Shown here in pieces: positions 7,210 through 21,271 of a stretch of DNA of 33,253 nucleotides (its first letter is position 1; every line of letters starts with the position of its first letter). The position numbers and the translations under genes are program-made. Origin of the DNA: Candidatus Caccousia avistercoris (GTDB lineage Bacteria > Bacillota > Clostridia > Oscillospirales > Acutalibacteraceae); assembly GCA_018715025.1 (NCBI GenBank), contig DVMK01000036.1:1-33253 (forward strand), in the 5' to 3' direction. Below the pieces are notes generated by a model. The model was not told the DNA's origin. It did not search any database and saw only the letters and a program-made list of their open reading frames with translations.

Positions 7210-8403
7210 CTACCAGCTGATCTTGTCCAGAATGCCGGAAAGGTAGGCGATGGCCACGCCGTAGTTGGTCATGGGCACGCCCTGGCGCTTGGCCTGCTCC
7301 ACCCGGGCCAGCACATACTTCCGGTTGAACATGCAGGCCCCGCAGTGGATGATGAGATCATACCCGGAAAGATCCTGGGGGAAGTCGGTACCGCTTACGA
7401 TTTGCACAGAGAGCCCCTCCCCGGCCCGCTTCCGCAGCATGCGGGGGATCTTCTCCCGGCCGATGTCCTCCGTGAGGGGGGCGTGGGTGCAGGCCTCGGC
7501 AATAAGCACGCGGGAATGCTCTGTCAGGCTGCCGATGGCGGCGGCGCTTTCCGCGAAGTAGGCCAGGTCCCCCTTGTACCCGGCGAACAGCACCGAGAAG
7601 GAGGTGAGCAGGGACTGGGGCGGCTTTTTGTCGTACACCTGGCGGAAGATCTGGCTGTCGGTGATGATGAGCTTGGGCGGGGCCGCCAGCGAGGCCAGCG
7701 CCTGCTCCAGGGTGTCGCCGGTACAGCAGGAAACCAGGCATTTTTTGTCCAGAAGCTCCCGGATGGTCTGCACCTGGGGCAGGATGAGCCGCCCCTTGGG
7801 GGCCTGGATGTCCTGGGGCATGACCAGCAGCACCTGGTCGCCGGGGCCGCACAGGGCGCCGGTGATGCTGGGCTGCTCAAAGTCCTCCGGCAAAGCGCGG
7901 ATGAGGGCCTCCCGCAGGGCGGGGATCCCCTCGCCGGTGGCGGCGCTTACCAGCAGGGCCGGCGCGCCGCAGGCCTCCCCGGCCCGGCGGGCCAGGGCCA
8001 GGGCTTCTTCCCTGCCCTCGTCCGCCTTGTTCACCACGGGGATGACGGGGGTTTTCTGCTCCCGGAAGCGGGCCAGCCAGGCCAGCTCCTCCTCCAGGCC
8101 GCCGCCGGAAAACACCAGCAGGGCCACGTCCGTTTTCCGGGCGGCTTCCTCTGTTTTTTCCACCCGCAGGCGGCCCAGCTCGCCCACGTCGTCAAACCCT
8201 GCCGTGTCAATGAACACACAGGGGCCTATGCCGTGAATTTCCATGGCCTTGTACACCGGGTCGGCGGTGGTGCCGGCCACCTGAGAGACCAGGGCCGCCT
8301 GCTGCCCGGTGAGGGCGTTTACCAGCGAGGATTTCCCGCTGTTCCGCTTGCCGAAAATGCCGATGTGCAGCCGGTTGGCCCGGGGGGTGTCTGTCAGGCT
8401 CAT
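7210..8403 (-). CDS. hydF: [FeFe] hydrogenase H-cluster maturation GTPase HydF
   Basis: GIFGKRNSGKSSLVNALTGQ, DTAGFDD, C-terminal EACTHAPL and IIHCGACMFNRKYV Fe-S motifs; adjacent to hydG and hydE. Confidence 0.95.
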   Translation of the reverse strand: MSLTDTPRANRLHIGIFGKRNSGKSSLVNALTGQQAALVSQVAGTTADPVYKAMEIHGIGPCVFIDTAGFDDVGELGRLRVEKTEEAARKTDVALLVFSGGGLEEELAWLARFREQKTPVIPVVNKADEGREEALALARRAGEACGAPALLVSAATGEGIPALREALIRALPEDFEQPSITGALCGPGDQVLLVMPQDIQAPKGRLILPQVQTIRELLDKKCLVSCCTGDTLEQALASLAAPPKLIITDSQIFRQVYDKKPPQSLLTSFSVLFAGYKGDLAYFAESAAAIGSLTEHSRVLIAEACTHAPLTEDIGREKIPRMLRKRAGEGLSVQIVSGTDFPQDLSGYDLIIHCGACMFNRKYVLARVEQAKRQGVPMTNYGVAIAYLSGILDKISW

Positions 8404-8422
8404 AAGCGTCCTCCTTCCCCGG

Positions 8423-9844
8423 TCAGAACCGGAAGTCCCGGCGCCCGCCGTGGATGTCGCTGATGTGCTCCTCCGCGATGCGGCGCACCTTCTCGTTGGG
8501 AATCTTTTTCAGTTCCTCCCGGATCACCTGCTCCCCAATCTCCCTGGTGGCGGGGGAGGCGTAGTCCTCCAAATACTCCTTCAGCGTCATCAGCGCGTTG
8601 GGCTGGCAGCAGTTTACAATCTGCCCGGATTTCAGCAGGGACATGAACCGGTCGCCGGTGCGGCCCTCCCGGTAGCAGGCGGTGCAGAAGCTGGGAATGT
8701 AGCCCAGCCGCAGCAGCCAGTCCACCACCTGGTCCAGGGTGCGGTTGTCGCTCACGTCAAACTGGCAGGAGTTCTCGTCCTCCGGCTCCGGTTCCTCATA
8801 GCCGCCCACGCTGGTGCGGGAACCGCCGCCAATTTGGGAAACGCCCAGCTGAAGCACCCGCTCCCGGCTCTTTTTCGACTCCCGGGCCGAGATGATCATG
8901 CCGGTGTAGGGCACGGCCAGCCGGATGAGCGCCACAATCTTGGCGAACATATCGTCCGAGATGGAGTTGGCGAAATCCTCCGGGTTGATGTCGTCCGCCG
9001 GGCGGATGCGGGGCACGCTGATGGTGTGGGGCCCCACCCCGTGTACGGCCTCCAGATGCTCCGCATGCATCAGCAGGCCCACAAAGTCGTAGCGGTACAG
9101 GTCAAGGCCGAACAGCACGCCGATGCCCACGTCGTCTATGCCGCCCTCCATGGCCCGGTCCATCGCCTCTGTGTGGTAGGCGTAGTTGTGCTTGGGGCCT
9201 GTGGGGTGCAGCTTTTCGTAATTTTCCTTATGGTACGTTTCCTGGAACAGGATGTAGGTGCCGATCTCCGCTTCCTTCAGCTTCCGGTAATTTTCCACCG
9301 TGGTGGCGGCGATGTTCACATTCACCCGGCGGATGGCCCCGTTCTTGTGCTTAATGCTGTAAATGGTGCGGATGCTTTCCAGTACGTATTCAATGGGGCA
9401 ATTCTGGGGGTCCTCGCCGGTTTCCAGGGCCAGGCGCTTGTGGCCCATGTCCTGCAGGGCGATGACCTCCCGGCGGATCTCCTCCTGGGTGAGCTTCTTC
9501 CTGGTAATGGTCTTGTTCTGGTGGTGGTAGGGGCAGTAGACGCAGCCGTTCACGCAGTAATTGGAAAGATACAGGGGCGCCACCAGCACAATCCGCCTGC
9601 CGTAAAACCGTTCCTTGATTTGGATGGCCAGCTCTTCCACCCGCCGGTTCACATCCTCCAGCTCGCAGTCCAGCAAAACGGCGGCTTCCCGGTGGGTAAG
9701 GCCCTTGCACTGGGCCGCTTTTTCCAGAATCCCCTCAATCAGGGGGCGGTTTGCCTTATTCTGTTCCGCGTAGGCCAGCGTTTCCTGGATTTCCCCGTCG
9801 TTGATGAATTCCTCTGCCTGCAGGGATTTGGGATCGTATTTCAT
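8423..9844 (-). CDS. hydG: [FeFe] hydrogenase H-cluster radical SAM maturase HydG
   Basis: Radical SAM CVNGCVYCPYHHQNK; C-terminal second cluster motif CTAC(x22)C; gene context. Confidence 0.95.
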   Translation of the reverse strand: MKYDPKSLQAEEFINDGEIQETLAYAEQNKANRPLIEGILEKAAQCKGLTHREAAVLLDCELEDVNRRVEELAIQIKERFYGRRIVLVAPLYLSNYCVNGCVYCPYHHQNKTITRKKLTQEEIRREVIALQDMGHKRLALETGEDPQNCPIEYVLESIRTIYSIKHKNGAIRRVNVNIAATTVENYRKLKEAEIGTYILFQETYHKENYEKLHPTGPKHNYAYHTEAMDRAMEGGIDDVGIGVLFGLDLYRYDFVGLLMHAEHLEAVHGVGPHTISVPRIRPADDINPEDFANSISDDMFAKIVALIRLAVPYTGMIISARESKKSRERVLQLGVSQIGGGSRTSVGGYEEPEPEDENSCQFDVSDNRTLDQVVDWLLRLGYIPSFCTACYREGRTGDRFMSLLKSGQIVNCCQPNALMTLKEYLEDYASPATREIGEQVIREELKKIPNEKVRRIAEEHISDIHGGRRDFRF

Positions 9845-9847
9845 AGC

Positions 9848-10969
9848 TCATTCTTCTTTCTGCGCTCTCTGCGCCAGTGAATTTCCTCCCGGGCAAGGCC
9901 CGGCGGGGCGGTAGTCCCCGCGCTCCGCCGGAAGCGTGAAGCCGATGGCCGCCATGCGCCGTTCCAGGGCGGCGCGGCCCTCGGCCGCCTCCTCGTCCAT
10001 ACAGATTTTGTTGTCGTACAGGGTATACTTCCGCCGCACCCCCACCGGCGAAAGGTTGGGCATGACCACATTGGCCCCGCTGAGCACCCCCTGCTCCCGG
10101 CCGTTTTCCAGCAGGGTGCCCAGGGCGGTGGTGGCCGGGATGAGGGCGTCCGGCAGCATGAGCCGCAGCAGGGCCACAAGGAAGAGCGTCTGCTCTGCCG
10201 AGCCCGCGGGCTCCGCCCCCAGAGGCGTGTCCCTGTGGGGTACGAAGGGGCCGATGCCCACCATGGCCGGGGAAAGCTCCCGAATGAAGCAAAGGTCCTG
10301 GGCCAGACAGTCTGCCGTCTGGCCCGGCGAGCCCACCATGAAGCCGGTGCCCACCTGGTAGCCGATCTCTTTCAGGTCCCACAGGCAGCGCTTCCGGTTT
10401 TCCAGGCTCAGCTCCGGCGGGTGCAGGCGGCGGTAATGGGCCGGGTCTGCCGTTTCGTGCCGCAGCAGGTACCGGTCGGCCCCCGCGTCAAACAGCGCCT
10501 GGTACGAGGCCCGGCTCCGTTCCCCCACCGAAAGGGTCACGGCGCAGCCGGGCCAGCGGGCTTTGATTTCCCCCACCAGGGCGCAGAGCCTTTCGTCGGT
10601 GAAGTACGGGTCCTCGCCCCCCTGCAGCACAAAGGTGCGGAACCCCAGCCCGTACCCGGCCTGGCAGCAGGCCAGAATCTCCTCCTGTGTAAGGCGGTAC
10701 CGCTCCGCCCGCCGGTTGCCCCGGCGGATGCCGCAGTACAGGCAGTCGTTTTTACAGTAATTGGTAAATTCGATCAGGCCCCTGGTGTACACCCGGCTTC
10801 CAAACCGGGCCCGGGCGGCCGCCCCGGCCCGCTCCCGGGCGAAGGCCATGTCCTCTGCGGCGGCATGCTCCAGCAAAAACCGCCATTCCCTCCTGGCAAG
10901 GCGGCGGTCCCGCTCCAGCTTTTCCAGCAGGGCGCGGGGGGAGGCGCCGCCCCTTTCCCAGTGCTCCAT
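9848..10969 (-). CDS. hydE: [FeFe] hydrogenase H-cluster radical SAM maturase HydE
   Basis: Radical SAM CKNDCLYCGIRRGN; FVLQGGEDPYFTDERL; GFMVGSPGQT; 3-nt gap to hydG. Confidence 0.95.
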   Translation of the reverse strand: MEHWERGGASPRALLEKLERDRRLARREWRFLLEHAAAEDMAFARERAGAAARARFGSRVYTRGLIEFTNYCKNDCLYCGIRRGNRRAERYRLTQEEILACCQAGYGLGFRTFVLQGGEDPYFTDERLCALVGEIKARWPGCAVTLSVGERSRASYQALFDAGADRYLLRHETADPAHYRRLHPPELSLENRKRCLWDLKEIGYQVGTGFMVGSPGQTADCLAQDLCFIRELSPAMVGIGPFVPHRDTPLGAEPAGSAEQTLFLVALLRLMLPDALIPATTALGTLLENGREQGVLSGANVVMPNLSPVGVRRKYTLYDNKICMDEEAAEGRAALERRMAAIGFTLPAERGDYRPAGPCPGGNSLAQRAQKEE

Positions 10970-19862: not shown

Positions 19863-19882
19863 GACTTCTTCCCCCTTTATTA

Positions 19883-19909
19883 TTGACAGGTCAATAGTTA
19901 ATCTGTCAA
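19883..19909. promoter_or_regulatory. Putative MarR autoregulatory operator (TTGACAG-13-CTGTCAA)
   Basis: ttgacaggtcaatagttaatctgtcaa between a TATAAT (minus) and the marR ATG. Confidence 0.5.
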
Positions 19910-20061
19910 CTATTATATCCCTGCGGAAGGATTTGTCAAGGCGGAGCAGCGCCCCCGGAAATGCTTCCGGCGGTGGCGGAAAAAGAGTTCCTGTGCTATA
20001 ATCCTTCTCAGCAGCGTTTGTTCCGCCCCGCCCGGGCAGGAAAAAGGAGGAGAGGAAGCCT

Positions 20062-20803
20062 ATGCAAGAACAGAAAACGATCCCCCTGCATATCGCCAAA
20101 GAGCAGGAGGGCTCTTACTTCACCCTGCCGGTGGAGGTCCCGGCGCATGTGGAAAGGCTTGACATTGCCTATGAATACCCCCGATATGAAGAGGTTTCCC
20201 ACGAGGGGTGGACAGAGCGCCGGGAGGTGTGCGTGGTGGATCTTGCCGTCAGCGCGCCGGGCGGCGCCTATGTGGGTTCCTCCGGCTCTGACCGCAGCCG
20301 CATCTGGATCTGCAGCGCAGGCAGCGCGCAGGGGTACGATTCGGTTCCCATTTCCCCAGGCACATGGGAGATTATTGTGGGCGCTTATAAAATTCCTGCG
20401 GAAGGGGCCGACGTGCGCTACACCGTGACCTTTACCAGGAAGGAGCTCCGGCTGTTCCGGGGGGACACCCACCTTCACACGCTGGGCTCCGACGGCTCCA
20501 TGAGCGTGCTGGACGCCGCCCGCTGCGCTCAATTCCGCGGCTTGAATTTTATCTTCCTTTCCGACCACAACAATTTTGCCCAGAATTTTTCCAGGGTCAG
20601 CGTGCCGGGCGTCACCGTGCTGCCCGGCACGGAATGGACGCACTACAAGGGGCACTGCGGCATGCTGGGGGTAGAACGCCCCTACCGCAGCGCGTTCTGC
20701 GTCAACACCCGGGAGGAAGCCGCCGCCAAGCTGGAGGAAGCCAGGGCCAACGGGGCCGCTGTTGTTCTCAACCACCCCTTCTGCCCCAGCTGCGGCTGGA
20801 AGA
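20062..20803 (+). pseudogene. PHP-domain phosphoesterase-like gene, 3'-truncated; reading frame then enters a GGDEF fragment out of frame
   Basis: AAGGAGG SD then MQEQKTIPLHIAKEQ...GDTHLHTLGSDGSM...FLSDHNNF...GTEWTHYKGHCG...VVLNHPFCPSCGWK. Recognisable PHP sequence stops at about 20803, after which the ORF translates the next region in the wrong frame to 21267. Confidence 0.75.
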
Positions 20804-21197
20804 TGTGGATTATTTCAAAAGGATCAACGACCAATACGGCCACCCGGAGGGGGATCGCTGCCTGGAAGGCGCCGCCCGGGAGCTGCGGAAGGTTTTCGAG
20901 CAGGAAGGGATTCTGGGCCGGCTGGGCGGCGATGAATTCGCGGTGCTGCTGTACCTTCCCATCCCCCGGGAAAGGTTGGAGGAAAAGCTGCGCCGCCTGC
21001 AGGAGAGACTCCGCCACATTGAGACGGAAGGCGGGCTTTCCTGCAGCATTGGGGCTCTTCCCGTGGCGGAAGAGCAGTCTGCGGAAGAGCTTTACCAAAG
21101 TGCTGACCGGCTGCTGTACCAGGCAAAGGAGCAGGGCCGCGGCCGGTATGTGGTGGGAGAGCCGGAAGGGGCAGGCTCCCCCGGCGGCGCGTCCTGA
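20802..21197 (+). pseudogene. GGDEF (diguanylate cyclase) domain fragment lacking its N-terminus
   Basis: DVDYFKRINDQYGHPEGDRCLEGAARELRKVFEQEGILGRLGGDEFAVLLYLP...SADRLLYQAKEQGRGRYVV; starts abruptly inside the GGDEF fold with no start codon or SD of its own. Confidence 0.8.
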
Positions 21198-21208
21198 CGG
21201 AAAAAGAG

Positions 21209-21236
21209 GAAAAACCTCCTGTTTTGGAGGTTTTTC
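21209..21236 (+). terminator. Rho-independent terminator
   Basis: GAAAAACCTCCTGTTTTGGAGGTTTTTC. Confidence 0.85.
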
Positions 21237-21265
21237 TTGCTTTTGCGGAGAAGATGTATTACAAT
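21237..21265 (+). promoter_or_regulatory. Putative promoter of the NCS2 permease (TTGCTT-17-TACAAT)
   Basis: ttgcttttgcggagaagatgtattacaat. Confidence 0.55.
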
Positions 21266-21271
21266 GAATAA

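Follow-up and report, generated by a model that had tools for sequence, protein, structure and literature searches.

In the 33,253-nucleotide stretch of the Candidatus Caccousia avistercoris draft genome analysed here (the window; contig 113), the 5' part of a CehA/McbA-type PHP metallohydrolase gene meets, at position 20802, the 3' part of a diguanylate cyclase gene read in a different frame. We lean towards the view that the joint was made in the bacterium by an ordinary, chance deletion or rearrangement of the non-homologous (illegitimate) kind, which destroyed both genes. An assembly or library chimera is the serious competitor, to which we give less than even credence. The locus comprises the following features (positions in the window, strand, description).

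20062..20802, plus strand: 5' part (codons 1-247) of a CehA/McbA-type PHP metallohydrolase gene, without the ~190 C-terminal residues that include GGSDFH (profile and alignments)
20802..20802, no strand: joint, with one base (G) assignable to both parents (nucleotide comparison with loci L008, L009 and L010 and with L117, L118 and L120)
20802..21197, plus strand: 3' part of a diguanylate cyclase gene, beginning within the GGDEF domain at the first DxDxFK Asp and running to the stop codon (profiles and alignments)
20062..21267, plus strand: chance frame of 401 codons, which begins with the PHP gene and passes out of frame through the GGDEF part (open reading frame)
20634..21197, plus strand: chance open reading frame that shares the GGDEF frame; its start lies within the PHP gene and is not the native cyclase start (open reading frame and alignment)
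21209..21236, no strand: hairpin after the GGDEF stop, terminator-like and scored on the minus strand (terminator-like character)

Two truncated genes

The PHP gene starts at 20062 behind a good ribosome-binding site, aaaaaggaggagagg. Its product matches NCBIfam NF038032 (CehA/McbA family metallohydrolase) with E=1.7e-23 and 83.5 bits, against a curated cut-off of 80 bits, and the retained part thus belongs to the family by homology. The match covers profile positions 3-130 of 315 and ends at residue 247, while the intact relative L009 covers positions 3-315. Residues 11-247 are 54% identical to L008-L010; the PHP relatives run ~190 residues past the break (WGFDIAPFDAVEIWNGPL...GGSDFHRPG...). 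A functional member of the family would have the full-length domain with HxH and GGSDFH-type motifs, and GGSDFH is absent here. Across the source draft genome the missing tail was not found (best E=0.03). In L008 and L010 the intact homologue immediately follows ABC permease-like genes and precedes a large gene that is conserved in both loci, a context absent from the window.

From 20802 onwards, a different frame reads DVDYFKRINDQYGH...RLGGDEF... up to a stop codon at 21195-21197. This part matches Pfam PF00990 (GGDEF) with E=3.3e-28 and 98.9 bits over profile positions 39-160 of 161 only, and TIGR00254 over positions 41-166. GGDEF homology and the RLGGDEF motif identify it as a diguanylate cyclase remnant; a functional cyclase would have a complete domain and its own start codon, and the sole start found is the chance one inside the PHP gene. 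The remnant has no N-terminal membrane part, and its GGDEF domain lacks ~38 positions at the front, among them the first strand. The best orthologues, at 47-48% identity, come from the same genus (G003:C5) and the same family (G165:C92 and G156:C19), and the cyclase orthologues are membrane proteins of about 455-470 amino acids with a complete GGDEF domain (PF00990 positions 1-160). A search for the cyclase N-terminus across the source genome did not find it, yielding only a 232-aa frame (E=7e-5) that matches the ECF-S-like part of the orthologues.

The N-terminal membrane part of these orthologues (L117:8082-9482, L118:2600-4015 and L120:7537-8943) resembles an ECF-S component (PF12822, sub-threshold). 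Judged by this likeness, they may be GGDEF proteins with an ECF-S-like sensor, one that looks like the S component (the substrate-binding subunit) of ECF vitamin transporters.

A preliminary description of this DNA had placed the end of PHP homology at about 20803 and the beginning of GGDEF homology, in the other frame, at 20802, with the PHP gene deprived of its 3' part and the GGDEF gene of its 5' part. The truncated profile matches and the alignments bear this out, the position being correct within 1-2 bases.

Structure and origin of the joint

The last PHP codon is AAG (20800-20802) and the first GGDEF codon is GAT (20802-20804), G20802 being common to both. Alignments against 16 full-length PHP proteins and four cyclases break at this same base. 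Where the PHP relatives L008 and L009 read TGC GGC TGG AAG TGG GGC, the window reads TGC GGC TGG AAG ATG TGG ATT. The residue before the first Asp of DxDxFK is L, I, V, M or F in 23 of 24 distinct sequences from the fetched loci, and the window alone has Glu; since all 23 other cyclase sequences carry a hydrophobic residue here, the Glu most likely stems from the PHP gene. Estimated from orthologues and not from the true parents, the overlap at the joint would amount to about one base; an A at the end of the lost codon could make it two. An overlap this short points to non-homologous joining.

The preliminary description had suggested a deletion, perhaps at a short sequence present in both parental genes such as the 15-mer gaagatgtggattat(ttc). 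This shared sequence found no support: copies of the window aside, none of the fetched loci contains the 15-mer, the PHP relatives read TGGAAGTGGGGC at this place, and the GGDEF relatives lack the GAA codon. Comparison with the orthologues found no several-base repeat common to both parents, such as a deletion between short direct repeats would use. The claim that no transposon sits at the joint stands; no tRNA, Rfam match, other mobile element or long repeat was seen there either. The 26-base joint sequence, TGCGGCTGGAAGATGTGGATTATTTC, was not found in viral contigs, and our literature search on short-homology deletions and chimeric contigs found nothing specific.

The relatives compared are distant: L008-L010, from other uncultured Clostridia, for PHP, and L117, L118 and L120 for the cyclase. 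Same-species genomes were sought and not found, and the nearest PHP relative has 54% protein identity. In the neighbourhoods of 24 PHP and four GGDEF relatives, all of them distant, the two genes are never adjacent; most neighbourhoods extend ~8-9 kb to each side, and several are shortened by contig ends. A deletion between two adjacent genes is thus a putative origin.

In the explanation that we favour, an illegitimate event would have brought PHP codon 247 up against mid-gene sequence of a membrane diguanylate cyclase, the overlap being ~1 base. Both genes would be destroyed by it: the PHP gene would lose the metal ligands on the GGSDFH side, and the cyclase would be left without its N-terminal membrane part and with a catalytic domain cut short at the front. 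In PHP enzymes both domain ends have to supply metal ligands, and the first strand is required for the GGDEF fold; judged from these known folds, both genes should therefore be null if the joint is real. We infer a joint that is recent and present in the cell, an origin by deletion and not by inversion or insertion, and inactive products.

Several observations speak for a real joint. K-mer assemblers do not normally merge two paths on an overlap of ~1 bp, which lies below their word length, so the short overlap mildly favours a real junction. There are no runs of N at the joint, and the missing halves were not detected on the other contigs of the bin. Tetranucleotide usage correlates at 0.95 between the two sides and at 0.98 and 0.95 between the sides and other contigs of the genome, compared with 0.46-0.88 for loci of other genomes; the composition of both sides fits one genome. 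Finally, the ribonucleotide reductase (RNR) marker in the left flank is 88-90% identical within the genus, as is typical of it.

Alternatively, the two stretches may be unlinked or lie further apart in the genome and have been brought together by a misjoin, through a scaffolder or gap-closer overlap, a chimeric library molecule or a collapse of strain variants. We regard this as less probable than a real event, and still as a substantial possibility. The draft is fragmented (269 contigs totalling 2.6 Mb; completeness 85%, contamination 0.7%), and the missing halves may be unassembled. The joint lies inside two coding genes that are unlinked in relatives, and beyond truncation the remnants show no further damage on either side; this is compatible with a recent event, and an assembly chimera predicts it equally well. 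In G003, the nearest genus member, genes from the left and right flanks lie on separate contigs: RNR on C2, the ABC gene on C30 and the NCS2-type permease on C1. Against this, gene order is poorly conserved between the compared species anyway, and the ~1 bp overlap, partly on general knowledge of assemblers, is too short for a k-mer misjoin. The permease, the right-hand neighbour of the joint (assigned by eye and not by profile), matches most closely in G013 (86%) and G003 (84%), other genus members reaching 42-43%; this pattern is neutral between a real joint and an artefact.

A working fusion, whether a PHP-GGDEF product of frameshifting or a novel chimera of 401 amino acids, is very improbable. 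The PHP frame does stay open for 154 more codons beyond the joint, to 21267, but open wrong frames are common at 60-62% G+C, and the extension is likely a by-product of this composition. Moreover, the relatives have two separate full-length proteins, never fused, and the GGDEF domain starts mid-domain with a polar residue in a core strand. There is just as slight a chance that the joint has become fixed within the species and that the truncated PHP protein, with its out-of-frame tail of 154 residues, is made and has gained a use, as a gene born by chimerism. Least credible of all is a sequencing indel within one native gene, compatible as it is with the two differing frames: the halves match unrelated full-length families, each extending far past the joint, and the parents being separate genes excludes the single-frame gene in relatives that the preliminary description had named as a refuting outcome. 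Two related candidates were rejected, a frameshift in a single native fusion gene (relatives have two separate proteins) and a programmed frameshift (the cyclase begins mid-domain).

Signals and genes around the locus

Read on the plus strand, the stem of the hairpin at 21209..21236 likewise ends in a T-rich run. Upstream of the PHP gene, the interval 19863-20061 contains a sigma-70 consensus promoter (19939-19912, minus strand; TTGACA-16-TATAAT, 12/12) facing a MarR-family gene. Beside it lie TTGAC/GTCAA repeats, ttgacaggtcaatagttaatctgtcaac, which could form an autoregulatory operator controlling MarR together with the two ABC exporter genes that follow. Elsewhere in the window, 7210-10969 (minus strand) encodes HydF and two adjacent radical SAM proteins, probably the [FeFe]-hydrogenase maturation set HydF, HydG and HydE.

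Consequences and comparison with known systems

If the joint is real, two dispensable genes would have been lost in a routine way. The preliminary description had a PHP enzyme and a c-di-GMP synthase lost together, which is right for these two genes; the genome retains further GGDEF genes (C99, C118 and C197) and another PHP gene (C188), and loss of a whole pathway therefore does not follow. For annotation, automatic pipelines can be expected to report a 401-aa 'PHP domain protein' here and possibly a 187-aa 'diguanylate cyclase', neither likely a working gene. The joint at 20802 also flags a spot of the contig for misjoin checking.

Altogether, the locus holds either two ordinary gene remnants that meet at a non-homologous joint or the seam of a chimeric contig, and neither would be surprising. 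Known here from the assembly alone, it resembles the gene-remnant pairs at illegitimate deletion joints in the abrupt meeting of two truncated genes with negligible overlap. Compared with the CehA/McbA family of the PHP superfamily, the remnant lacks the C-terminal ~190 residues with WNGP and GGSDFH, but keeps DTHLHT, SDHNN, GTEWTH, NHPFC and the N-terminal extension to residue 247. Unlike a membrane diguanylate cyclase with an ECF-S-like N-terminus, the second remnant has neither the membrane part nor the first ~38 positions of the GGDEF domain, yet it retains this domain from DxDxFK to the end, with its motif intact.
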